From Pseudomonadota bacterium (lineage in GTDB: Bacteria > Bdellovibrionota_C > UBA2361 > OMIW01), in assembly GCA_900299205.1 (NCBI GenBank), contig OMIW01000127.1, positions 1 through 16,466 of the forward strand: a stretch of 16,466 bases of DNA. Reading direction: 5' to 3'. The position numbers and the translations under genes are program-made. The notes below the pieces were generated by a model, which was given only the letters and a program-made list of their open reading frames with translations, made no database searches and was not told the DNA's origin. Shown here one piece after another: positions 449 through 12,668 of the stretch; positions within the stretch are counted from its first letter, which is position 1; each line of letters begins with the position of its first letter.

Positions 449-1789
449 TCATCTTGATCTTTCAAGCATTTCCGACAGGACTTCCTCAAGCGCTTTGAAT
501 TCTGGTGATATTTCGCGGGGTGCAATCGGTTGATCGGCGATAGCGGCGAGTTGAGGGGGTATCGGGGGTTCAAAGCCGATGGCGGTGGTGACCACCTGTG
601 AAAACTTTGCGGGGTGGGCGGTGTGGAGGAAAATCCCGTGCTCATCGGGCCGTAGTTCGGTGGTGAGAGCGTGATACGCGACGGCGCCGTGAGGGTCGAG
701 GATATAGCCGGTTGTCTCATATACGTCCCGCATGGTGGCGATGGTAGTATCATCTGAGACCGATACACCCGAAAGAGATGCTCGGACGAGCTGCGGTTCG
801 TTTCCGTGGAGCGACATCACACGGGGCATATTGTTGGGGTCGCCTATGTCCATCGCGTTCGAGATCGTGGCGATGCTCGGTTGCGGGCGGTACGGGGCAC
901 CCGCCAGAAAACGGGGAACGGCATCGTTGGCATTCGTTGCGGCGATAAATCGGCTGATCGGAACCCCCAGTCGCTGTGCATAGAGTCCCGCGGTGAGATT
1001 TCCAAAATTGCCACACGGGACCGCACATACCCACGGAACAGGTGATGAAGCGCTGCTCCATGAGCGCCGCTCCGTCAGTCGTAACCATTCCTGATGCGCC
1101 AGAAAATAGTAGAAGACCTGAGGAAGGAGACGCGCGATATTTATCGAGTTCGCGGATGTAAGCCCGAGAGATTCTCGATACTGGCTGTGCGAGAGAGCTT
1201 TTTTGACTAGCGATTGACACGCATCGAAGGGGCCACTAACCCGCAGAGCGAGAACATTTTCTCCGAGTCCCGCGAATTGTTTCTCCTGGATCGGACTCAC
1301 CATGCCGGCGGGGTAGAGAACCACCACGTTAACCCCTGGGCGCCGCCAAAAGCTGTGGGCGACGGCGCCGCCGGTGTCTCCCGAGGTAGCCACCAGAATC
1401 GTTATTCTGCGCCCCTGAGTCGCGGCGATACGGGTCGTCACCGCGGCAAGAAATCGAGCACCAAAATCTTTGAACGCAGCGGTTGGCCCGTGGAACAGTT
1501 CGAGCGCGGCGATTGAGTCGCTCATCGGGATAACAGGAGCTCCAAAGGTGATAGCCTCGGCTACCATCTCGGCGGTTGACATCCCCTCAATCGTCCGACC
1601 AAACAGATGCTCGGCAACGGTTATGCAGAGCTCGGTTCGGTCCATGGTGATGATTGCGTCCCAAAAGGATGAGGGGAGTGGGGTTATCGTTGGCGGAATG
1701 AAAAGCCCCCCATCGGGCGCAAGCCCCAGGGTCACTGCCTGGGAGAAGGGAACGATGGTCGTTGAATCGCTGGTGGTGATAAGGTCCAT
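449..1789 (-). CDS. thrC: Threonine synthase
   Basis: Threonine synthase, the last step of threonine biosynthesis: O-phosphohomoserine plus water gives threonine and phosphate, using pyridoxal phosphate in the cytosol. The 446 residues open with the family signature GLAPDGGLFIP (residues 22-32). The PLP lysine is K107 in the HGPTAAFKDFGARF motif, and ATSGDTGGAV at 134-143 is the phosphate-binding loop typical of fold-type II enzymes. Asn-Phe-Gly and SNAMDIGDPNNMPR motifs follow further on. Length fits the longer, E. coli-like class of about 430-460 residues. The ATG at 1789 has an AGAGGTG ribosome-binding site 2 bases upstream and lies 13 bases after the thrB stop, so it is the third gene of the thr operon. 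No damage is visible. Confidence 0.97.
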   Translation of the reverse strand: MDLITTSDSTTIVPFSQAVTLGLAPDGGLFIPPTITPLPSSFWDAIITMDRTELCITVAEHLFGRTIEGMSTAEMVAEAITFGAPVIPMSDSIAALELFHGPTAAFKDFGARFLAAVTTRIAATQGRRITILVATSGDTGGAVAHSFWRRPGVNVVVLYPAGMVSPIQEKQFAGLGENVLALRVSGPFDACQSLVKKALSHSQYRESLGLTSANSINIARLLPQVFYYFLAHQEWLRLTERRSWSSASSPVPWVCAVPCGNFGNLTAGLYAQRLGVPISRFIAATNANDAVPRFLAGAPYRPQPSIATISNAMDIGDPNNMPRVMSLHGNEPQLVRASLSGVSVSDDTTIATMRDVYETTGYILDPHGAVAYHALTTELRPDEHGIFLHTAHPAKFSQVVTTAIGFEPPIPPQLAAIADQPIAPREISPEFKALEEVLSEMLERSR

Positions 1790-1802
1790 GGCACCTCTGT
1801 GA

Positions 1803-2852
1803 TTACGAATCGGTCGATTTGGGAGAAATAATCGAAATACGGGGCGGATGTCGGGTTATCTGACCGGTGTGCGCCGTCGCGTTAATGTCGTGGGTGGCAA
1901 ACGCGCCCTTCATTGCCTGACCGACCCGCTCTGCAACCTCAAGCGATGGACACAAAGAAAAGAGTGACGGACCCGAACCCGAAATGGTGCAGTTGTACCC
2001 TCCTGCGTCAATCGCCGCGCGTTTTACGGTTTCACTCCCCGGAATCAAGGGGAGCCGGACTGGTTCGGCAAGATAATCGACAAGGGATGAGGTGATAAGT
2101 TCGTGATCGTCTTGATAGAGCCCGCAGAGCAATCTTGCGAGCGCGGCACTCTGTTTAATCGTGGTGGCAAGAGGGACCTCGCGCGGTAAAACAGACCGAG
2201 ACACCGCGGTCTCAAGAGCGAAATCAGGATTAATGACGGCATAGAAGAGGGATGATGGACATGGCAGCTCGACAAAAGTAAGCGGTTCGTATGAGGCGAC
2301 AAGGACGAAACCGCCCAGTATGGCAGGAGCGACGTTGTCAGCGTGGGCAGCACCACATGCCCGCTCCTCCCCGATCATGGCGAAGCGAACAAGCTCGCGA
2401 GGCGGAAAGGGAGAGCCGATAAGGGTGTTGACGGCGAGTGCTGCAGCGGCACTGCTCGCCGCGCTCGATCCCATGCCACTTCCAAGCGGAAGTCCTTTTG
2501 TAAGCGTCAATCTTACTCCTCTGGTGATTCCTCGCGCTGCGAGAAGCGCGGCAGCAACGACTCCGACGCAGTTGCGCTCGGCATCGACCGGTAGCTTTCC
2601 CCCATCTCCGGATATATGCGCAATTGTCACTCCGGGAGCATCGGTCCATGAGGCGCATACCTCATCTCCGGGCCCCGACAGAGAGAATCCCATGATATCG
2701 AACCCGGGGCCTACATTGGCGACCGTCGCGGGGGCAAAAGCGATGATGGTTTCGGTAATCATGTTGTCGGTCGCTGAGATAGTCGGTTCGAGCAGTTGTC
2801 GGTGGTCAGATGGTGGTAGGGGGTGGATTGTGAGCTGCACTCTGTGACGCAA
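1803..2852 (-). CDS. thrB: Homoserine kinase
   Basis: Homoserine kinase of the GHMP family, which phosphorylates homoserine to O-phosphohomoserine with ATP. The ATP-binding motif PLGSGMGSSAAS is at residues 122-133, the N-terminal family motif FAPATVANVGPGFD at 39-52, and the C-terminal GHMP motif ISGSGPSLF is present near the end. Two starts are possible. A TTG at 2852, 17 bases after the thrA stop, has a good AGAGGGGAG ribosome-binding site and gives 349 residues with a 30-residue leader. An ATG at 2762 gives 319 residues, closer to the usual 300-320, and begins just before the conserved fold, but has no clear ribosome-binding site. I report the TTG start because of the site. It is the middle gene of the thr operon, between thrA and thrC. 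Confidence 0.95.
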   Translation of the reverse strand: MRHRVQLTIHPLPPSDHRQLLEPTISATDNMITETIIAFAPATVANVGPGFDIMGFSLSGPGDEVCASWTDAPGVTIAHISGDGGKLPVDAERNCVGVVAAALLAARGITRGVRLTLTKGLPLGSGMGSSAASSAAAALAVNTLIGSPFPPRELVRFAMIGEERACGAAHADNVAPAILGGFVLVASYEPLTFVELPCPSSLFYAVINPDFALETAVSRSVLPREVPLATTIKQSAALARLLCGLYQDDHELITSSLVDYLAEPVRLPLIPGSETVKRAAIDAGGYNCTISGSGPSLFSLCPSLEVAERVGQAMKGAFATHDINATAHTGQITRHPPRISIISPKSTDS

Positions 2853-2869
2853 GAGTCTCCCCTCTCAAC

Positions 2870-5371
2870 TCAACTTGCCAACGCGACCCGCACAATGTCG
2901 GCAAAAACTCCCGCCGCCGTTACCGCCGCTCCTGCCCCTGGCCCCTGAATAACCAAGGGGCTTGTGTGATACCGCTCTGTCGTGAAGGCGAGGATGTTGT
3001 CGCTCCCTGATAACGAGAAAAACGGGTGGTCGAATCCCACCGATTGGAGCGAGACCGAGGCACGGGTGCCATCGAATTGCGCGATATATCGGAGGCGGCG
3101 TCCGTGTTCGTGCGCATCCGTCACCAGTTGCTCAAAGGTCTTATCGTAATCGACGAGACGATCAAGAAACTCCTCCGCAGTCGCGAGCGAGCGGAGAGGT
3201 TCCGGAACAAGATTTTCAATCACGATATCATCGAGCTCGAGCTCAAACCCCGCCTCTCGGGCGAGAATAAGGAGTTTTCGGGCCACATCAAGACCGCTGA
3301 GATCGTCGCGAGGATCGGGCTCGGTAAAACCTTGCTCGCGGGCATCCCGAATGAGCTTGCTCATCGGTCGACCGGGCACGAGGGTGTTGAAGAGATAGCT
3401 GAGCGTACCACTCAGGACCGCGTCGATCGTTCGTATCGAATCACCGCTGCGACGAAGATCGTTGAGGGTTCCGATGACGGGGAGCCCTGCGCCGACACTA
3501 GTTTCAAAGAGAAACCGCGAGCCTGGGAGCTTCGATGCCTCTTTAATGAGCCGATACGAGACCAAAGCCCCCGACTGTCCTTTTTTGTTTGGGGTCACCA
3601 CAGCGATATGACGCGAAAGGATGGAGTGATACCAATGGGGAACCTCTTCGCTCGCAGTGCAGTCGACGAACACGGAATGAGGAAGGTTAAGGTCGATCAT
3701 TCGTTGAATGAAGGTGGAGAGTTCGGCTGATTCACCGATCGATTGGAGGAGGCCCTCGGGATCGTCGAGCGGAATACCATCTTCATCGATCACCATTCGG
3801 CTTGAAGTGCTCAGCCCAACGACCGAGAGCTCAACGTGATGGTCCGTTTTAAGGCTATCTCGATATTCAAGTATCTGCTCGATCAGTGTTCTGCCGATGA
3901 GCCCATGGCCGACAACGAACACATTCAGGGTGCGGAGGTGAGAGAGGAAAAATCTATCGTGAATCGCGTTTAAAGCCTTTCGTTGATCGAGGCGCCGGAT
4001 GACCACCGAGATGTTTCTTTCTGATGATCCTTGAGCGATTGCGGCGATATTGACTCCATTTTCTGCGAGCGAGTGGCAGAGGGTTGCGGCGACTCCGGGA
4101 GTATTGCGCATCCCATCTCCCACGACCGAGACAATTGCATACTCGTCATCGATGATGGGGGGATCGATGAGTGATGAACGGAGTTCGTACGAAAACTCCT
4201 GACGAATGGCCGCCTCGGCGACCGCCGATTGAGCAGGTCGGATGGCAACACAGATTGTGTGTTCCGATGATGCTTGGGTTATGAGGATGACATTAACCTC
4301 GGCAGCTGCGAGTGCACGAAAGAGCCGCATCGCCATCCCTGAAACCCCTACCATCCCGCTTCCCTGAACTCGAACGAGCGCGAGCTGATCGATTGAGGAT
4401 ATTCCCCGTATCGCCTCGGTCGCATCGCCGGGGCTTGCCCCGATAACGGTGCCAGCCGCCACCGGATCAAAGGTATTTTTTATGACGAGAGGGATGCCTC
4501 GGGCCATTGCCGGGCGCATGGTTGGAGGATAGATAACCTTTGCCCCGAAATGCGAAAGCTCCATCGCCTCCTCGTACGAGAGGTAGGGGACGGGGAATGC
4601 CCGCCGAACCTTCCGGGGGTCGCACGTCAGCACTCCGCTGACATCGGTCCAGATCTCGATCTGCGAAGCACCCACCGCAGCTCCCGCAAGTGACGCTGTG
4701 TAATCGGAGCCCCCTCGCCCAAGAGTCGTTGTTTCGCCGTTTTGGGTCGCCCCGAGGAAACCTGTCAAGACAACGACATCGGGGTGGGTGGAGGCAAACC
4801 CCCTGATTCGGGCAAATGTCTCATCGTCGTTAACGAGCGCATTCCCGAATGTTGCGTCAGTTACCACCAAACCCCGAGCATCGGCAAAGGTCGCGGCTAT
4901 CCCCTGATCAGAGAGGGCAGCAGCGACAATCTGAGCGGAGAGTCGCTCTCCCACAGACATGACGGCATCGAGGGTCCGGGAGGACAGCTCTCGGAGAAGG
5001 TGGACCCCGGTAAGACGCGCTTCAAGCTCATCGAAGATCTGGTCTATCGATGCTTTCAAGTGACATCCGCCCACCGGTAAGGGGAGATGGTCTTCTTGCG
5101 TTGGAGGAGAGGAAAGTGACAAGACCGCTCCCCTCGCAGTTTCATGATGTCTCAATCTCAGCGCGGTCAGCGCATCTCGGTAAGATGGATCGCCCGCAAC
5201 AGCTGTGTGAGCGCTTTTTATCAGATCGTCCGTTACCCCCTGCAGCGCAGAGACGACAACCAAGGGACGCGCCCCTCCGAGTTGTGCCAAACGGATGATC
5301 TCCACCACTGCGAGAATTCGCTCGGCAGACGCTACTGAGCTTCCGCCGAATTTGAGAACTTTTATGGTCAT
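2870..5371 (-). CDS. thrA: Bifunctional aspartokinase / homoserine dehydrogenase
   Basis: Fused enzyme that catalyses the first and third steps of the aspartate-to-threonine pathway. From an ATG at 5371 it has 833 residues (E. coli ThrA has 820). The aspartokinase part starts at once with VLKFGGSSVA (residues 4-14) and has TTLGRGGSDYTASL (215-228) and IWTDVSGVLTCDPRKV. Two ACT-type regulatory regions follow at about 332-380 and 411-460, the usual site of threonine feedback. The dehydrogenase part has the NAD(P) loop GHGLIG (488-493), VTPNKKG (592-598) and DDLSGLDVARK. E684, D695 and K699 keep the spacing of the yeast catalytic Glu, Asp and Lys. A TTG at 5419 would add 16 residues before the kinase motif, which family alignments do not need. 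No strong ribosome-binding site precedes the ATG. First gene of thrABC. Confidence 0.97.
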   Translation of the reverse strand: MTIKVLKFGGSSVASAERILAVVEIIRLAQLGGARPLVVVSALQGVTDDLIKSAHTAVAGDPSYRDALTALRLRHHETARGAVLSLSSPPTQEDHLPLPVGGCHLKASIDQIFDELEARLTGVHLLRELSSRTLDAVMSVGERLSAQIVAAALSDQGIAATFADARGLVVTDATFGNALVNDDETFARIRGFASTHPDVVVLTGFLGATQNGETTTLGRGGSDYTASLAGAAVGASQIEIWTDVSGVLTCDPRKVRRAFPVPYLSYEEAMELSHFGAKVIYPPTMRPAMARGIPLVIKNTFDPVAAGTVIGASPGDATEAIRGISSIDQLALVRVQGSGMVGVSGMAMRLFRALAAAEVNVILITQASSEHTICVAIRPAQSAVAEAAIRQEFSYELRSSLIDPPIIDDEYAIVSVVGDGMRNTPGVAATLCHSLAENGVNIAAIAQGSSERNISVVIRRLDQRKALNAIHDRFFLSHLRTLNVFVVGHGLIGRTLIEQILEYRDSLKTDHHVELSVVGLSTSSRMVIDEDGIPLDDPEGLLQSIGESAELSTFIQRMIDLNLPHSVFVDCTASEEVPHWYHSILSRHIAVVTPNKKGQSGALVSYRLIKEASKLPGSRFLFETSVGAGLPVIGTLNDLRRSGDSIRTIDAVLSGTLSYLFNTLVPGRPMSKLIRDAREQGFTEPDPRDDLSGLDVARKLLILAREAGFELELDDIVIENLVPEPLRSLATAEEFLDRLVDYDKTFEQLVTDAHEHGRRLRYIAQFDGTRASVSLQSVGFDHPFFSLSGSDNILAFTTERYHTSPLVIQGPGAGAAVTAAGVFADIVRVALAS

Positions 5372-5475
5372 GGGTAAATACGATGAGGATGAAATGTTAC
5401 CCCAAACAGCTCGGTGCAAAGACGAAAGGGCCCAAACCGCTCCATCAGAGACGGCAATCCAATTAATTCCGTGAT

Positions 5476-5535: not shown

Positions 5536-6975
5536 TCAGTTGAGCCCGAGCATGTCATTGAGCGCCTGACAGATGGCTTTGAAGTGGTAGAGGTATTCGA
5601 TATCGGAGGAAGAGAACTGCTCTCCGGACATCTCTAGATGGATTACCCCTATACGACGAGAAAATCCGAGTATCCAGCTGATCGAGGCGACCTCTCGTTG
5701 AGGGGTGCCAGCCACTCGAGTCCTCCAGATGAGGGGACGTTTTGCAAGATAAGCGCGGGTTGCAATGAGGGATTTATCTTGGAGCGGGGCGGGGGAAATC
5801 GAAATAGTCTGGGGATTGCCGACCCATAGAACGGGAATGAGTTCGCGGGAATCGGGGTTGAGGGTAAGAATGACGACAGCCGAGAATCCGGCGATTGGAA
5901 TCGTGTTCTTTATGAGCGGGGATAGGAGCTCTGGTGCCGGGCCCCCGAGTGGCATCCGATGATACAAATCGGTAAGGTTGTCACGACACCCTCCTTGGCA
6001 TCGGGATATGAACGGGTTTTGACGAAGGACCGGGTCTCGTTCCGAAGCGCTCCTTAAAAGCATAGGATCGGAGCTTACCCCAGGAGAATTGAGGGAGGGA
6101 ATCACCCGTTGATACTCTCGAAGGAAAACCTTGAGGTCGTCCGGGGAGGGGGTTTCTGAAAGGAGCTGCGCTGCGGAGGGCCAGCTTTCCCGGAATGATG
6201 ACCATGCATCACTGGCTCCTGGATAAAGAAGCTCGCGACGAGTCTTTGCCAAAAGCTCAGAGGCTGCGCAGATCTCCCTCAATCCTGTGACTGATTGATC
6301 CAGGCTCTCCTTTGAGTCCACCGGATCTTTTCGAGGGGCTGGGTCGCCCAGAAGCGGGAGGGTCGCGAGAAATCCCCAACGCAGGAGAAGTTTGGAGGTT
6401 AATCTTAGTGGGGTGAATCCCAATACTTCGCGACAAGCCAGCTCAAAGCCATCAAATGATTTGAGATCAGCCATCATCGCGCAATACTCATCGGGGAACG
6501 AGAACGCAATGAGGAGGTTCCCCATTTGTCGAGCTATGCTGATTCCAAACAGGGTGGAAGCAGAGCCTGTTCGATTCACGGCCGAATGGGCGGTAATACT
6601 CGCCTCAAGAGTTTCAAGCACCCGATCGCCAAGAAGAGATGATGCTTTGAGATCCGGAATTGTCTCGACGGCTCTTGAAATGATTGAGGCAATCGAGCGA
6701 CTCGGCACGCAACCAAGTATTTCCTCTGGATTTTTGATGGTAGATACCCCGATGCCAAGGGAGCGACCTCGAATAGCCAGCTCTTTAATAACGAAGAGGT
6801 AGAGAGCGATATCCAGCCGGAGAGTTTCGACTAGTCTTTCTGGAGTCTCATCAAAGTGACCGGCAGTGAGGTCTTGAATTAGTTCATGCCCAAACTGGTG
6901 ATTGACCGGTATCCATTGAGATTCTATCCGGTTAACAACACGCTCAAACTCAATGGCGCTCCACTGGGAATTCAA
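5536..6975 (-). CDS. HDOD-GAF type regulatory protein (degenerate HDOD)
   Basis: A 479-residue soluble protein. Residues about 40-240 look like an HDOD domain, a catalytically dead relative of HD phosphohydrolases used in signalling. The clearest part is at 150-201, where a helix like the HDOD 'LLHDIGKL' stretch (ARQMGNLLIAF) is followed by E-V-L-G-F ... LLLRWGF, matching the usual E-x-x-x-x-G-F ... LLxxWGxP ending. No HD metal pair is seen. Residues about 345-475 resemble a GAF domain (FSAVVILTLNPDSRELIPVLWVGNP and a matching final beta-helix unit). The start is TTG with a strong AAGGGGGT ribosome-binding site 5 bases upstream. It is divergent from the sigma-54-driven flhB operon, and HDOD proteins are known to affect motility and flagellar expression in some bacteria, so a link is plausible but unproved. 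Domain calls rest on pattern recognition alone. Confidence 0.7.
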   Translation of the reverse strand: MNSQWSAIEFERVVNRIESQWIPVNHQFGHELIQDLTAGHFDETPERLVETLRLDIALYLFVIKELAIRGRSLGIGVSTIKNPEEILGCVPSRSIASIISRAVETIPDLKASSLLGDRVLETLEASITAHSAVNRTGSASTLFGISIARQMGNLLIAFSFPDEYCAMMADLKSFDGFELACREVLGFTPLRLTSKLLLRWGFLATLPLLGDPAPRKDPVDSKESLDQSVTGLREICAASELLAKTRRELLYPGASDAWSSFRESWPSAAQLLSETPSPDDLKVFLREYQRVIPSLNSPGVSSDPMLLRSASERDPVLRQNPFISRCQGGCRDNLTDLYHRMPLGGPAPELLSPLIKNTIPIAGFSAVVILTLNPDSRELIPVLWVGNPQTISISPAPLQDKSLIATRAYLAKRPLIWRTRVAGTPQREVASISWILGFSRRIGVIHLEMSGEQFSSSDIEYLYHFKAICQALNDMLGLN

Positions 6976-7344
6976 GATACACCCCCTTTATGGATGTCGA
7001 GCTGATTAATTCTCTGGGCTCCGCCCCGATGATGGAGATACCCCAATTTTCCTTTAATACGATGACGTACTCCCCGATTCCGAACCTGACAGGAAGCCTG
7101 ACCGGAAAAAAACGTGGTCATCACCATCTCCACTGACGAGACGGGGGAGTTGGGAGATTTCCCCTCTATGGTACTTCTAGATTAGGTCCTGTTGGAGAAC
7201 TTTCTTTACTCTCATGGAGGTTGCGTCACATAAGGAGAAGCCCTCGCGAATTGAATCCGTTCCCCGCGCGGCAACCTTTTGACGGTCATCAGGAGGGCCG
7301 GCACTTCAGGGGGGGGCTCGGAGCCTTTCTCGGCCAGTAGAATC

Positions 7345-7360
7345 TGGCACCCTTCTTGCT
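7345..7360 (+). promoter_or_regulatory. flhB: Sigma-54 (RpoN) promoter of the flhB operon
   Basis: TGGCAC-CCTTC-TTGCT. The -24 GG and -12 GC are separated by exactly 10 bases, and both boxes match the sigma-54 consensus TGGCAC-N5-TTGCA/T apart from the last base. Transcription would start near 7371, giving a leader of about 176 bases before the GTG of flhB. Sigma-54 drives middle flagellar genes in Pseudomonas, Vibrio, Caulobacter and Campylobacter, so its place just ahead of flhB-flhA fits. I did not recognise the enhancer site for the activator. Confidence 0.75.
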
Positions 7361-7460
7361 CGAATGGTGAGGTCTTGTTTTATTGCGTCAGTAGTCTGGC
7401 GCGGAGTGGTCTCATGTCATCGGTTACCAGGAATTTCGCTGCCACTTGGAGGGTTAGGTT

Positions 7461-7478
7461 GGGTAGTGTTCACCACCC
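7461..7478 (+). promoter_or_regulatory. Hairpin overlapping the leader terminator
   Basis: GGGT-A-GTG and CAC-C-ACCC form an inverted repeat with one mismatch around two bases (effective loop about four). Its last two bases (7477-7478) are the first two of the terminator stem that follows. A second pairing, AGGGT (7450-7454) with ACCCT (7475-7479), overlaps the same arm. Either could compete with the terminator and act as an antiterminator. This is inferred from pairing alone. Confidence 0.35.
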
Positions 7479-7508
7479 TGCTCAAAAGGGGGCAGGTTTG
7501 GTTTTTTT
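7477..7508 (+). terminator. Terminator-like hairpin within the flhB leader
   Basis: A 7-base-pair stem (CCTGCTC with GGGCAGG, one T-G wobble) and a 6-base loop occupy 7477-7496. TTTGGTTTTTTT follows directly at 7497-7508. This is the classic form of a factor-independent terminator. It lies about 106 bases downstream of the predicted sigma-54 start and 30 bases before the flhB ribosome-binding site, so it would either attenuate the operon or end a short leader RNA of about 135 bases. Confidence 0.55.
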
Positions 7509-7546
7509 CGAGAGTTTATCCGAAGACGAGACTTCGCGGAGCAATC

Positions 7547-8626
7547 GTGGCTGACTATTCATCCCCAGAAGAGCGTACCGAACTGCCCATGGGGCGCCGC
7601 CTGCAAGAGATGCAGCGGGAGGGGCGGGTTTACTTCTCGAATGAGGTGGCACAGATCGCAACACTGGCTGTTGCATTTCTTGTTGCAACACGAATTGCAC
7701 CAAAGCTATTTGCGGGTTTGAGGGAGATTCTTCGAACTACACTCGCATCCCTCCATCAAACCACGGAGCTTTCAACGAACAATATCGGGCATTGGTTTGT
7801 TGAGTCGCTATGGCATGTTGGGCCTTTCCTCCTTTCGCTCCTTTTTATCAATAGTATCGTCGCAAGTCTCGCGGTGATGATTCAAACTAAATGGAACATC
7901 AAGGCGTCGATTATTCGCTTTCGATTTTCAGCTCTTAATCCGATTGCGGGGATTAGACGGATCTTTTCTCCAGCTGGTTTTTTCACGACGCTGAAGGCAA
8001 TTGGAAAGCTCGCTCTGGTGCTCCCTATCGCTTATTTCGCGATTCGATCCTCAACTCAAGAGGCGGTCATGTTGCCATTTCGCGGTATTGAGGGGCTTCT
8101 CCTCTTTGCCGGAAATGGAATGACTATTGTGTTCTGGCGGCTGATATCAGTTTTTGCGGCGATAGCGGCGATTGATTATGTCTACGGGAAGTATCGGTGG
8201 CACCGCCAGAACAATATGACGAAGCAAGAGGTAAAGGATGAGCATAAAAATATGGAGGGTGATGAGGCAACCAAGCGCAAGATGGTAAGTAAAGGCAGAG
8301 CTCGCCTTGTTCAAAAGCTTGCCTCAGCGGTACCAAAAGCGGACGTGGTGATTACTAACCCGACCCATTATGCAGTTGCCCTTCGATATGATCGCTCAAA
8401 AATGGGAGCACCGGAAGTTGTTGCAAAAGGAACAGGATACCTTGCGTTGCGGATCCGCGAGATAGCTAAGGAAGCCGGGGTGCCGATCGTCGAGCGCAAG
8501 TTACTCGCCCGAGCGCTGTATGCCTCGGTAAAGGTCGGTCAGCAGATTCCCCACGACCTTTACCGAGCCGTCGCTGAGGTTCTTGGCTATGTGTATCGAA
8601 TAAAGGGAGCAGGTGCTCCGAGATAG
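7547..8626 (+). CDS. flhB: Flagellar export gate switch protein FlhB
   Basis: FlhB, inner-membrane component of the flagellar type III export gate. Its cytoplasmic domain cuts itself and switches export from rod and hook proteins to filament proteins. The chosen GTG at 7547 has a GGAG ribosome-binding site 5 bases upstream and gives 359 residues, the normal length. The protein begins with the typical ADYSSPEERTELPMGRRLQEM, an acidic start followed by a basic, export-gate-like helix. About four membrane segments lie at 34-52, 91-112, 150-167 and 190-213. The cytoplasmic domain carries the autocleavage motif NPTH at 271-274 (269-272 in Salmonella), and the usual VP...ERKLLARALY region follows at 312-325. 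Transcription is probably from the sigma-54 promoter at 7345. flhA follows after 38 bases. Confidence 0.96.
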   Translation: MADYSSPEERTELPMGRRLQEMQREGRVYFSNEVAQIATLAVAFLVATRIAPKLFAGLREILRTTLASLHQTTELSTNNIGHWFVESLWHVGPFLLSLLFINSIVASLAVMIQTKWNIKASIIRFRFSALNPIAGIRRIFSPAGFFTTLKAIGKLALVLPIAYFAIRSSTQEAVMLPFRGIEGLLLFAGNGMTIVFWRLISVFAAIAAIDYVYGKYRWHRQNNMTKQEVKDEHKNMEGDEATKRKMVSKGRARLVQKLASAVPKADVVITNPTHYAVALRYDRSKMGAPEVVAKGTGYLALRIREIAKEAGVPIVERKLLARALYASVKVGQQIPHDLYRAVAEVLGYVYRIKGAGAPR

Positions 8627-8664: not shown

Positions 8665-10734
8665 ATGGCAGAATCTCGGATGAGGATCGCGCAGTCACTT
8701 GCGATTCCGGCATCATTAATAGGGGTTCTTCTGATCCTCGTTCTGCCACTGCCGACGGCTCTCCTTGATGTCTGCATCGCGCTGAATATAACCATTTCGC
8801 TCGTAATACTCTTCGTGTCGCTCTATATTGAGCGGCCCCTCTCATTCTCATCCTTTCCGGCGCTCCTCCTCGTTACGACCCTTTTTCGCCTCTCGATGAA
8901 CGTGGCGGCAACACGACTCATCCTTCTGAATGGGGATAGAGGGCATGAGGCAGCCGGAAGTGTCATCAAGGCTTTCGGAGAGTTCGTGGTAGGCGGTAAC
9001 TACATTATCGGTTTTGTGATGTTTGTCGTTATTAGCATCGTTAATCTCAAGGTCATCACGAAAGGTTCGGGCAGAATCGCGGAGGTCGCTGCCAGATTTA
9101 CCCTCGATGGGATGCCAGGGAAGCAGATGGCGATCGATTCTGATCTCAATACCGGCATTATCAAGGAGACAGAGGCCCGTCAGCGAAGGAAGGAGGTTCA
9201 GCAAGAGGCGGAATTTTACGGATCGATGGACGGAGCTGCTAAGTTTGTGAGTGGAGACGCTGTCGCTGGGGTCTTTATCACGGGAATAAACATCGTTGGA
9301 GGCCTCATAATTGGGGTTGCTCAGAAGGGGATGGATTGGCTTACTGCTGCCCAAACTTACAGCCTCCTCACTATCGGAGACGGTCTGGTCAGCCAGATTC
9401 CCGCGATCATCATCTCCACGGCGGCGGGGCTCATCGTTACCCGAGCTGGGTCGGGAGAGGATCTGAATGCCGATGTATTTCGCCAGCTATCCGGCTCGGT
9501 ACGCCCGCTCTTTTTGACCTCGGCGGTATGTGGTGGTTTTGCCCTTGTTCCGGGGCTTCCATTCTTTCCTTTCATGCTGCTCAGTGTGGGGGTTGCAGCA
9601 GTTGGCGTTGTCCGACGGCGAGTCATTGCTGAGGCGCTCGTGAAACCGACGAAGGTCGAGGCGACCCCAGATCAAAATGTTCCCAAGCCAGGGAGTACCG
9701 AGGAGGTTCTGGGTCTGCTGGGGCTTGATACTCTGGAGCTTGAGCTGGGTTTTGAATTGGTGCACCTGGTCGATGGTGGTGATCTTGTCGAGCGTATCAG
9801 GAATCTGCGTCGGCAATTTGCCACAGAGTATGGATTTATCGTTCCACCGATCCACATTAAAGATAATGTTCGGATCCCCTCCGCCGAATATCGGCTGGTT
9901 TTGCGAGGAGCTATCATTGCACGTGGTGAGCTTAAACCCCGATATCTCCTCGCGATGGATCCGGGCACCGTGGCATCTCCCTTGCAAGGTATCCCAACGA
10001 GGGAGCCAGCTTTTGGGCTCGATGCCTTGTGGATACCTGAGCATGATAAGGAGCGTGCGCAGTTTACGGGATATACTGTTGTGGATTTAACGACCGTTGT
10101 GGCGACGCACATGACCGAGATTATTCGCGGTCATATGCACGAGTTGCTTGGGAGGCAGGAAGTTCAGCAGCTTCTTGACAATGTTGCCAAGGATTCACCG
10201 AAGGTGCTTGAAGAGCTTGTGCCAACGCACCTTTCAGTTGGGCAGGTCCAACAGGTCCTCCAGACACTGCTTCGCGAACAGGTGAGTATCCGTGACCTCA
10301 AAGGGATTCTTGAAACACTTGGCGATTGGGCGCCCACCGTAAAGCACCCTGAGCGGCTCGCCGAGTTTGTTCGTCGACGCATGTCGCGGGTGATCACTGC
10401 GCGCTATACCAGTCAGGCAGGAGTTTTACCGCTTGCCTCGATAGCAGCCCCGGTTGAGCGTCAGCTCGCTGATGCGGTGCAGCAGACTGATGAGGGAAGC
10501 TTCCTTGCGCTTGATCCTCCATTCGCTCAGTTGATGATTGGAAAGCTTACAAAGTTGTCGGAGAAGTTTTTGGAGCAGGGCTATACTCCTTTGTTACTTG
10601 TGCCTGCTCATCTGCGGGCGGCGTTGGCCCGGTTTTGCGAGAGATTTACCCCTGGCTTCGCCGTCATTAGTCACAGCGAGGTTGCGCCGAATGTGCGGGT
10701 TCAGTCCCTCGGGGTACTTTCGATGGAGGGGTAG
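8665..10734 (+). CDS. flhA: Flagellar export gate protein FlhA
   Basis: FlhA, the large export-gate protein that forms a ring in the inner membrane, uses proton motive force, and docks substrate-chaperone complexes through its cytoplasmic domain. The 689 residues match the family (about 690-700). The N-terminal half holds eight or so membrane segments, including 14-57, 61-75, 110-130, 200-220, 240-258 and 277-316. The FHIPEP family signature region is at 75-90 (RLSMNVAATRLILLNG), and the conserved cytoplasmic loop GRIAEVAARFTLDGMPGKQM is at 136-155. D198, in SGDAVAG, corresponds to the essential Asp of Salmonella FlhA (D208). Residues from about 330 form the soluble domain. An AGGA site lies 7 bases before the ATG. 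No flhF follows, which is unusual. Confidence 0.97.
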   Translation: MAESRMRIAQSLAIPASLIGVLLILVLPLPTALLDVCIALNITISLVILFVSLYIERPLSFSSFPALLLVTTLFRLSMNVAATRLILLNGDRGHEAAGSVIKAFGEFVVGGNYIIGFVMFVVISIVNLKVITKGSGRIAEVAARFTLDGMPGKQMAIDSDLNTGIIKETEARQRRKEVQQEAEFYGSMDGAAKFVSGDAVAGVFITGINIVGGLIIGVAQKGMDWLTAAQTYSLLTIGDGLVSQIPAIIISTAAGLIVTRAGSGEDLNADVFRQLSGSVRPLFLTSAVCGGFALVPGLPFFPFMLLSVGVAAVGVVRRRVIAEALVKPTKVEATPDQNVPKPGSTEEVLGLLGLDTLELELGFELVHLVDGGDLVERIRNLRRQFATEYGFIVPPIHIKDNVRIPSAEYRLVLRGAIIARGELKPRYLLAMDPGTVASPLQGIPTREPAFGLDALWIPEHDKERAQFTGYTVVDLTTVVATHMTEIIRGHMHELLGRQEVQQLLDNVAKDSPKVLEELVPTHLSVGQVQQVLQTLLREQVSIRDLKGILETLGDWAPTVKHPERLAEFVRRRMSRVITARYTSQAGVLPLASIAAPVERQLADAVQQTDEGSFLALDPPFAQLMIGKLTKLSEKFLEQGYTPLLLVPAHLRAALARFCERFTPGFAVISHSEVAPNVRVQSLGVLSMEG

Positions 10735-10808: not shown

Positions 10809-11705
10809 ATGAGCCAAACCTGGGTTGGGGAAGATGCAATGATGGACGGAGATGTCGTATACGGGGGAGGGAAGACGGGCATCCCCCGGGTGATGAGCAT
10901 CACCAGCGGGAAGGGGGGAGTTGGCAAGACTAACACGGCGGTAAACCTCGCCATAGCGTTCGCCGAGCGAGGTCGTCGTGTATTGCTGATGGATTGCGAT
11001 TTTGGATTGGCGAATGTTGACGTCATGTTTGGTATTCGCCCTCCCCAGACTCTGGAGCAGGTCGTTCTCTCCAATCTTCCCTTAAAAGAGGCTATCGTAG
11101 AAACGCCCCACGGTGTCTCTCTGATCGCAGCTGCATCGGGCATAGAGTCGCTTGCGGTACTTTCGGTCGAACAGCGGATACGGATGTGTGCCGAGCTTGA
11201 ATCTGTGGCGAGGGGTTACGATTATCTCCTTATTGATACCCAGGCAGGTATTGGTCCGGATGTTATGTATTTTAACGCCGTTTCCTCTGAAGTCCTCGTT
11301 GTGATTACCCCAGAGCCAACCTCAATCGCGGATGCGTATGCGCTGATAAAGGTCCTCGTCGGTCATTACGGAGAAACGAAGGTATCGCTCGTTGTTAACA
11401 ATGTGAGTGGATTTGATGAGGACCCAGAGCGGGTCGCTCGCAGGGCGGCAACGCGATTAATGAATTCTTGCGAGCGTTTTCTGCGAATTCGAGTTTCATA
11501 CCTTGGATTTATTCCACACGACGCCGCCGTCTCAGCGGCGATATTGAGAAATAGACCGCTGTTAGAGATATTTCCGACCTCTCAATCAGGATTGTCCTTA
11601 AGGAGATTGGCAAAACGTGTCGATGAGGTCTCGGAGGGGCCACAGGTACGAGGTGGACTTCAGTTATTCTTCCAAGACATTCTCGCTAGACAGGTTGCTC
11701 TGTGA
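10809..11705 (+). CDS. flhG: MinD-like ATPase FlhG (FleN/YlxH), without the FlhF-activating motif
   Basis: A 298-residue MinD/ParA-type ATPase that in other bacteria controls flagellar number and position and can restrain the flagellar master regulator. The deviant Walker A motif SGKGGVGKTN is at 33-42 (K35 and K40), the switch I region MDCDFGLANVDVM at 61-73, Walker B LLIDTQAGI at 140-148, and the FlhG-typical ITPEPTSIADAYALIK at 166-181. Residues 1-32 contain no DQAxxLR-like motif, the segment FlhG normally uses to activate the GTPase of FlhF. ATG at 10809 has a weak AGGT site. An ATG at 10839 (M11) has a better GGGGA site and is a real alternative. The C-terminus overlaps the next gene by four bases (GTGA). 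Confidence 0.93.
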   Translation: MSQTWVGEDAMMDGDVVYGGGKTGIPRVMSITSGKGGVGKTNTAVNLAIAFAERGRRVLLMDCDFGLANVDVMFGIRPPQTLEQVVLSNLPLKEAIVETPHGVSLIAAASGIESLAVLSVEQRIRMCAELESVARGYDYLLIDTQAGIGPDVMYFNAVSSEVLVVITPEPTSIADAYALIKVLVGHYGETKVSLVVNNVSGFDEDPERVARRAATRLMNSCERFLRIRVSYLGFIPHDAAVSAAILRNRPLLEIFPTSQSGLSLRRLAKRVDEVSEGPQVRGGLQLFFQDILARQVAL

Positions 11706-11926
11706 GAGAGGTCAAGACTCGGGAGAACGATTTCCGGTATGTGCGATTCGCGTTTGCGCTTTTCGCCCTAATCAGTCTCATCGTTGTTGGCGTTGAGGGG
11801 TGGCGACACGATATTGGGCTAGGAACGCTCGCGGTGAGAGCCGCTATCGTCATTGTTGGCATCCGAATTATTTGCGCGATAGTTGTCGGGGTTTTGAGGA
11901 GCTATGAAGAAATTCAAGGCAACTAA
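11702..11926 (+). CDS. Small two-helix membrane protein coupled to flhG and fliA
   Basis: A 74-residue protein read from a GTG that overlaps the flhG stop as GTGA. It ends 23 bases inside fliA, so it is translationally coupled at both ends and very likely real. Two hydrophobic stretches lie at about 13-32 and 43-65, joined by a short polar loop with Gly-Trp-Arg-His-Asp. The first ten residues are charged (MREVKTREND) and the tail is acidic and polar, which suggests an inner-membrane hairpin with both ends in the cytoplasm. I do not recognise a family. Its place between flhG and fliA suggests a role in the flagellar programme or simply operon coupling. No function is claimed. Confidence 0.72.
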   Translation: MREVKTRENDFRYVRFAFALFALISLIVVGVEGWRHDIGLGTLAVRAAIVIVGIRIICAIVVGVLRSYEEIQGN

Positions 11927-12668
11927 GGCGAAGACGACGGCGATTGAGGCCTATCGTTCGGTCAGTGAGTACGAGCGGGAGGACGTGATCCGAAGTTATC
12001 TGCCCCTTGTAAAACGGGTTGTTCATCGCCTCTCGGGTCGCCTGCCCAAGGAGGTTGATGTCAAAGAGATGCTTAATTCGGGCATTATCGGACTTGTCGA
12101 TGCGCTCGAGAAGTTTGATCCAACTCACGACACTAACTTCGCAACTTACGCCCAGTTCCGGATCCGCGGGGCGATTATCGATAGTTTTCGGGCTCAGGAC
12201 TGGCTTCCTCGCACCCTGAGGTACAAGGCCCATAAAGTTGAATCAGCGTATCACCGGATCGAGCAACGGATGGGGCGGCCCGCAACCGATGAGGAAGTAG
12301 CTGGAGAGCTCGGCATTGAGCTAGACGAGCTTCAGCGGCTCCTGAGTGAGGTCGGCAGCATCGTTATGTTGAGTTTTGAGGAGCTCGGATTTGGGCACGG
12401 AGAGGACCGCTTTCAGGCAGACGAGGTGGTTCCGAGCCGTATGCGCGATCCCCTGAGCAGAATACTCGGGGGAGAAAAGGTCGAACTCGTGGCTCGCGCC
12501 CTTGATAGGCTACCCGAGAAAGAACGGCTCGTTATATCCCTCTATTTTTACGAGGAGCTCAATCTGAAAGAGATTGGCGAGATCCTTGGGGTTACGGAAT
12601 CGAGGGCATCTCAGATTCGGTCCCGGGCGCTCATTCGATTAAAAAATATCCTTCGCACCGCTCGATAG
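11904..12668 (+). CDS. fliA: Flagellar sigma factor sigma-28 (FliA/WhiG family)
   Basis: RNA polymerase sigma factor of the FliA family, expected to transcribe late flagellar and chemotaxis genes once the hook is complete. In 254 residues, region 2 spans about 27-105: SYLPLVKRVVHRLSGRLP, then VDVKEMLNSGIIGLVDALEKFDP and FATYAQFRIRGAIIDSFRAQDWLPRTLR. Region 3 is near 110-150 (IEQRMGRPATDEEVAGELGI). Region 4 is at 198-250, with a helix-turn-helix at LNLKEIGEILGVTESRASQIRSRALIRLK. The ATG lies inside the small upstream gene, with GAGGAG very close (4 bases from GAGG), which fits coupled translation. Length and layout are normal. The anti-sigma factor FlgM is not in the window. Confidence 0.96.
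   Translation: MKKFKATKAKTTAIEAYRSVSEYEREDVIRSYLPLVKRVVHRLSGRLPKEVDVKEMLNSGIIGLVDALEKFDPTHDTNFATYAQFRIRGAIIDSFRAQDWLPRTLRYKAHKVESAYHRIEQRMGRPATDEEVAGELGIELDELQRLLSEVGSIVMLSFEELGFGHGEDRFQADEVVPSRMRDPLSRILGGEKVELVARALDRLPEKERLVISLYFYEELNLKEIGEILGVTESRASQIRSRALIRLKNILRTAR

Follow-up and report, generated by a model that had tools for sequence, protein, structure and literature searches.

The flhB-flhA operon of the Pseudomonadota bacterium studied here is preceded by a sigma-54 promoter and, further downstream in the leader, by a hairpin with a T tract that resembles an intrinsic terminator. The promoter is strongly supported by sequence comparison as a true signal, of an ordinary and well conserved kind; the hairpin is plausibly a functional terminator, and is restricted to the lineage of this bacterium as far as can be seen. 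We give about an even chance to the reading that combines the two, in which the lineage-specific terminator would act as a fixed brake on an operon driven by an ordinary sigma-54 flagellar promoter.

The sequence, referred to here as the window, is a stretch of 16,466 nucleotides belonging to a fragmented draft genome (2.45 Mb in 206 contigs) that was most likely assembled from a metagenome. The flhB locus was compared with those of 27 relatives of the same order and class, all from families other than that of the window genome, with FlhB identities of 41-51%. A first FlhB scan of the genome contigs gave no match, and an alignment scan with FlhB returned mainly distant FlhB proteins. The features of the window are collected in Table 1. 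The start of flhB falls on the same residue as the starts of its homologues. A longer FlhB beginning at ATG 7364 was rejected, since this codon precedes the predicted transcript start and the homologues begin at 7547.

Table 1. Features of the flhB leader and operon; positions are those of the window.
Feature	Position	Strand	Basis or remark
TTTTGAC element, candidate activator-binding half-site	7277..7283	+	68 bp upstream of the -24 box
Sigma-54 -24/-12 promoter TGGCACCCTTCTTGCT	7345..7360	+	consensus without mismatch; box before flhB in 27/27 relatives; rpoN present
Predicted 5' leader of the flhB-flhA-MinD-like-fliA operon, 176 nt	7371..7546	+	from 11 nt after the -12 C up to the base before GTG
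TTGCGTCA, match to TG[CT]G[CT]CA	7383..7390	+	in relatives this word follows closely on the start
Local dyad or hairpin TGCGTCAG-TAGT-CTGGCGCG	7384..7403	+	folds alone at -11.9 kcal/mol
Leader hairpin P1	7437..7468	+	-11.3 kcal/mol
Intrinsic-terminator-like hairpin and T tract	7472..7508	+	outer stem 7472-7475/7499-7502, inner stem 7477-7483/7490-7496, T tract 7503-7508
Ribosome-binding site GGAG of flhB	7538..7541	+	sequence
flhB	7547..8626	+	start GTG 7547; PF01312 4e-103; TIGR00328 7e-100, slightly under its curated cut-off
flhA	8665..10734	+	PF00771; TIGR01398 above cut-off
MinD/ParA-like ATPase, FleN/FlhG by position	10809..11705	+	PF13614
fliA, flagellar sigma-28	11904..12668	+	TIGR02479 above cut-off

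The promoter box had been described as near-consensus in the preliminary description of this DNA; it is present and in fact carries GG at -24 and GC at -12 at the correct spacing, with no mismatch to the sigma-54 consensus, and would place the transcript start near 7371. Such a match is not rare in itself, exact matches occurring three times in the 2.45 Mb genome versus once in the reversed control. The promoter call is made instead from the position of the box, which is conserved before flhB: a sigma-54-type GG-N10-GC box lies 33-161 bases ahead of flhB, or of its aligned start, in all 27 relatives with readable upstream sequence. In L023 the match is weak, with a PWM score of 7.5, and the boxes of the other relatives score 16.6-21.8. 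The upstream neighbour of flhB varies; it is fliR in most relatives and, in the window, a divergent gene of unassigned family, the fliR of this genome being on another contig. Since the upstream genes differ while the box is kept in every relative, the promoter stays with flhB, and this conservation strongly supports the earlier assignment of a sigma-54 promoter to the flhB-flhA operon.

The genome also encodes RpoN (PF04552, 1.7e-61) and AAA+ activators of sigma-54, with five strong PF00158 matches, two of which lie a short distance apart on contig 125, one of these carrying a response-regulator domain. Other sigma-54 boxes of this genome are found before flgB, motA and a flgN-like gene, the last at 761-1004 on the minus strand of contig 113 (L150). 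Control of flagellar genes by RpoN is established (review PMC3930126), and FlhB, FliR and FliQ are among the enriched groups in a survey of the sigma-54 regulon (PMC12316311); the promoter is in line with this standard view. It resembles the sigma-54 promoters of class II/III flagellar genes of polar flagellates (Vibrio, Pseudomonas, Campylobacter) in having a -24/-12 box before an export gene, and its genome resembles theirs in carrying rpoN together with NtrC-type activators. Unlike in those promoters, two words found in this order, TTTTGAC and TG[CT]G[CT]CA, are not matched to any described activator site.

Of 28 flhB promoters, 16 carry the first of these words, TTTTGAC, in the 130 bp upstream of the -24 box, versus a mean of 0.26 and a maximum of 2 in shuffled sequences, a test that treats related genomes as independent and thus overstates the significance. 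The element is present in several separate families of the order, and permitting TTTCTGAC as well raises the count to 20 of 28. Its distance to the -24 box ranges from 49 to 136 bp, mostly 49-91 bp; across L005-L033 and the window, TTTTGAC(A) stands about 50, 80 or 90 bp from the box in most genomes. A whole-genome search of the 28 genomes for TTTTGACA-N38-66-box found six places, and none in the reversed control. Five of these are promoters of flhB, and the remaining one is upstream of a gene named by eye as an ECF-type sigma factor. With a relaxed form of the sigma-54 box, searched as TTTTGAC-N35-65-box, the whole genome of the window has two places, one before flhB and one inside a long ORF. 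The pairing of this element with a sigma-54 box is almost specific to flhB. The element would most simply be the site of an NtrC-type activator, and in a poorly known order it could be a useful pointer to the export-gate activator.

The predicted leader is unlike those of relatives in its length: 176 nt versus 7-135 nt, none longer being found among those examined. The second word, TG[CT]G[CT]CA, is present in 10 of 27 leaders, no more than 60 bases from the -12 box, versus 0.34 in shuffles with a maximum of 3, a count inflated by several relatives of one genus. It mostly falls 19-27 nt past the -12 box, and may represent a further site for a protein or a feature of the RNA. In the leaders of L010, L011, L015-L017, L019, L020 and L026 the word stands about 10-15 nt into the predicted transcript. 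A conserved hairpin at +13 to +33 was considered and rejected, the dyads of the set scoring a mean of 5.0 versus 4.66 in shuffles, whose maximum was 5.07. Folding of the whole leader is unexceptional (z -1.0 and -1.3). A DNA search of the order for similar leaders found no homologue (best E 0.07). Rfam gave no match at the gathering score, only a chance lncRNA match with E 0.78; a known riboswitch, for c-di-GMP or another ligand, or another known RNA family was rejected, no Rfam aptamer matching the leader.

The 7-base-pair stem with its 6-base loop, the T run and the flhB ribosome-binding site at 7538 are all present as previously placed. The inner stem (CCTGCTC/GGGCAGG, 7477-7483/7490-7496) encloses the loop AAAAGG and is followed by the tail TTTGGTTTTTTT at 7497-7508; moreover, an outer helix, missed by the earlier description, pairs ACCA 7472-7475 with TGGT 7499-7502. 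Together the two helices give a hairpin of -14.6 kcal/mol, immediately followed by TTTTTT (T score 4.28), the stable G+C-rich stem directly before a U tract that is expected of an intrinsic terminator. When compactness, stem energy and T-tract score are combined, no other compact terminator candidate in the 16.5 kb window is as good; a longer hairpin within the MinD-like gene is lower in energy but weaker in its T tract. A terminator as good (T score >=4.2, stem <=-12 kcal/mol) arises in 25 of 2000 dinucleotide-shuffled leaders (1.25%). In about 149 kb of the genome, both strands included, similar hairpins lie behind genes four times and, by chance, inside genes six times; the leader hairpin is kept apart from those six, having been scored 'in gene' because the flhB frame is open upstream. 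As a few similarly strong hairpins lie behind its genes, the organism appears to make use of them.

The preliminary description would have counted leader stems not kept in relatives against its reading, and the relatives compared point that way: a comparable terminator is present in 0 of the 27 relatives of the same order and class, which belong to other families, with two weak matches in L032 and L033. Most relatives' leaders are too short for such a terminator, and so are those of flgB and motA, while none comparable was found in the 218-nt flgN-like leader. The latter, in L150, is strongly folded at -82.5 kcal/mol, without a terminator. The flhB leaders of L032 and L033 share a very strong hairpin of about 16-17 pairs that differs at some bases from one genome to the other and lacks a T tract.

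Two alternative pairings had been proposed to compete with the terminator stem as in attenuators. Both exist on paper, one being the hairpin 7461-7478 (-5.7 kcal/mol) and the other AGGGT 7450-7454 with ACCCT 7475-7479, but they do not compete. In the leader folded up to 7508 the terminator has a pair probability of 0.99, and giving it up raises the energy of the best structure by 14.3 kcal/mol; when the upstream sequence is shuffled, this gap averages 13.5 kcal/mol, and 186 of 300 shuffles give a gap as small or smaller. The hairpin 7461-7478 also loses to P1. As the advantage of the terminator is the same as in shuffled leaders, nothing points to an intrinsic switch, the two pairings were rejected as an antiterminator, and attenuation through competing stems is unsupported. 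No mutually exclusive antiterminator of competing stability is seen. A translated leader peptide of the trp type is not found either. The 46-codon ORF at 7414-7554 spans the terminator; a GGAG stands seven bases ahead of its ATG, and its stop overlaps the start of flhB. This ORF was rejected as a leader peptide, with a codon use of -0.16 bits per codon versus +0.25 for genes and no homologue. The leader is thus like trp-type leader-peptide and two-stem attenuators in placing a terminator between promoter and first gene, and unlike them in lacking an antiterminator beyond chance and a coding leader ORF. No attenuator was known at this place to the preliminary description, and a search of open papers found no description of one before flhB either.

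In the reading we favour, RNA polymerase with RpoN and an NtrC-family activator, probably bound at the conserved TTTTGAC at 7277, would transcribe flhB-flhA-MinD-like-fliA from 7345-7360. All transcripts from this promoter would have to pass the terminator at 7472-7508, so that a fixed share would probably end there, giving an RNA of about 135-138 nt and less expression of the export gate, with no built-in antiterminator seen. Counting against this reading are the chance hairpin and T tract matches inside genes, and the fact that no comparable terminator is present in this leader in relatives. The same two observations favour another explanation, possible though on the unlikely side, in which the promoter is real but the leader has come by its hairpin and T run by chance as it drifted, without useful termination. 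It also gains from the unexceptional folding of the whole leader and from the rate of such hairpins, about 1% per leader with some 28 leaders inspected; but a compact -14.6 kcal/mol stem directly before six T, outside genes, is unusually good.

Attenuation of the flhB operon is unproven. Regulation by an outside factor, whether a protein, a ligand, a small RNA or a ribosome, that blocks the terminator and so controls the export operon, appears unlikely. The terminator does stand between promoter and gene, with no space for a further promoter behind it, and there is a precedent in Clostridioides difficile, where the Cd1 c-di-GMP-I riboswitch in the flgB leader acts by premature termination and yields a short RNA of about 160 nt (PMC5386303). 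Against it stand the absence of an antiterminator beyond shuffles and of any Rfam match, the non-coding codon use of the leader ORF, which has no homologue, and the lack of conservation of leader and terminator. Among known cases of premature termination in a flagellar leader, Cd1 comes closest in function, the likeness being a flagellar operon leader with a terminator, here a predicted one. Cd1 differs in having a sigma-A promoter and a GEMM aptamer, while the flhB leader has a sigma-54 promoter and matches neither GEMM nor another Rfam family. The more particular proposal, that an undescribed factor acts on 7472-7508 and that the sigma-54 leader, by premature termination regulated in this way, controls the export gate, we regard as quite improbable. 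Should the terminator prove to be regulated, flagellar export would gain a further level of control, exerted once transcription has begun. That promoter and terminator bracket about 135 nt (7371-7508) might also suggest a sigma-54-made small RNA with targets of its own, but the lack of sequence conservation in the order, the absence of an Rfam match and the presence of flhB directly behind make this very improbable.

On the other side of the promoter, the divergent gene adjoining it (5536-6975, minus strand, 479 aa) has no Pfam or NCBIfam match. Beyond it the flagellar genes are adjoined, at 449-5419 on the minus strand, by genes for threonine synthase, a homoserine-kinase-like ORF (named by eye) and a fused aspartokinase-homoserine dehydrogenase.
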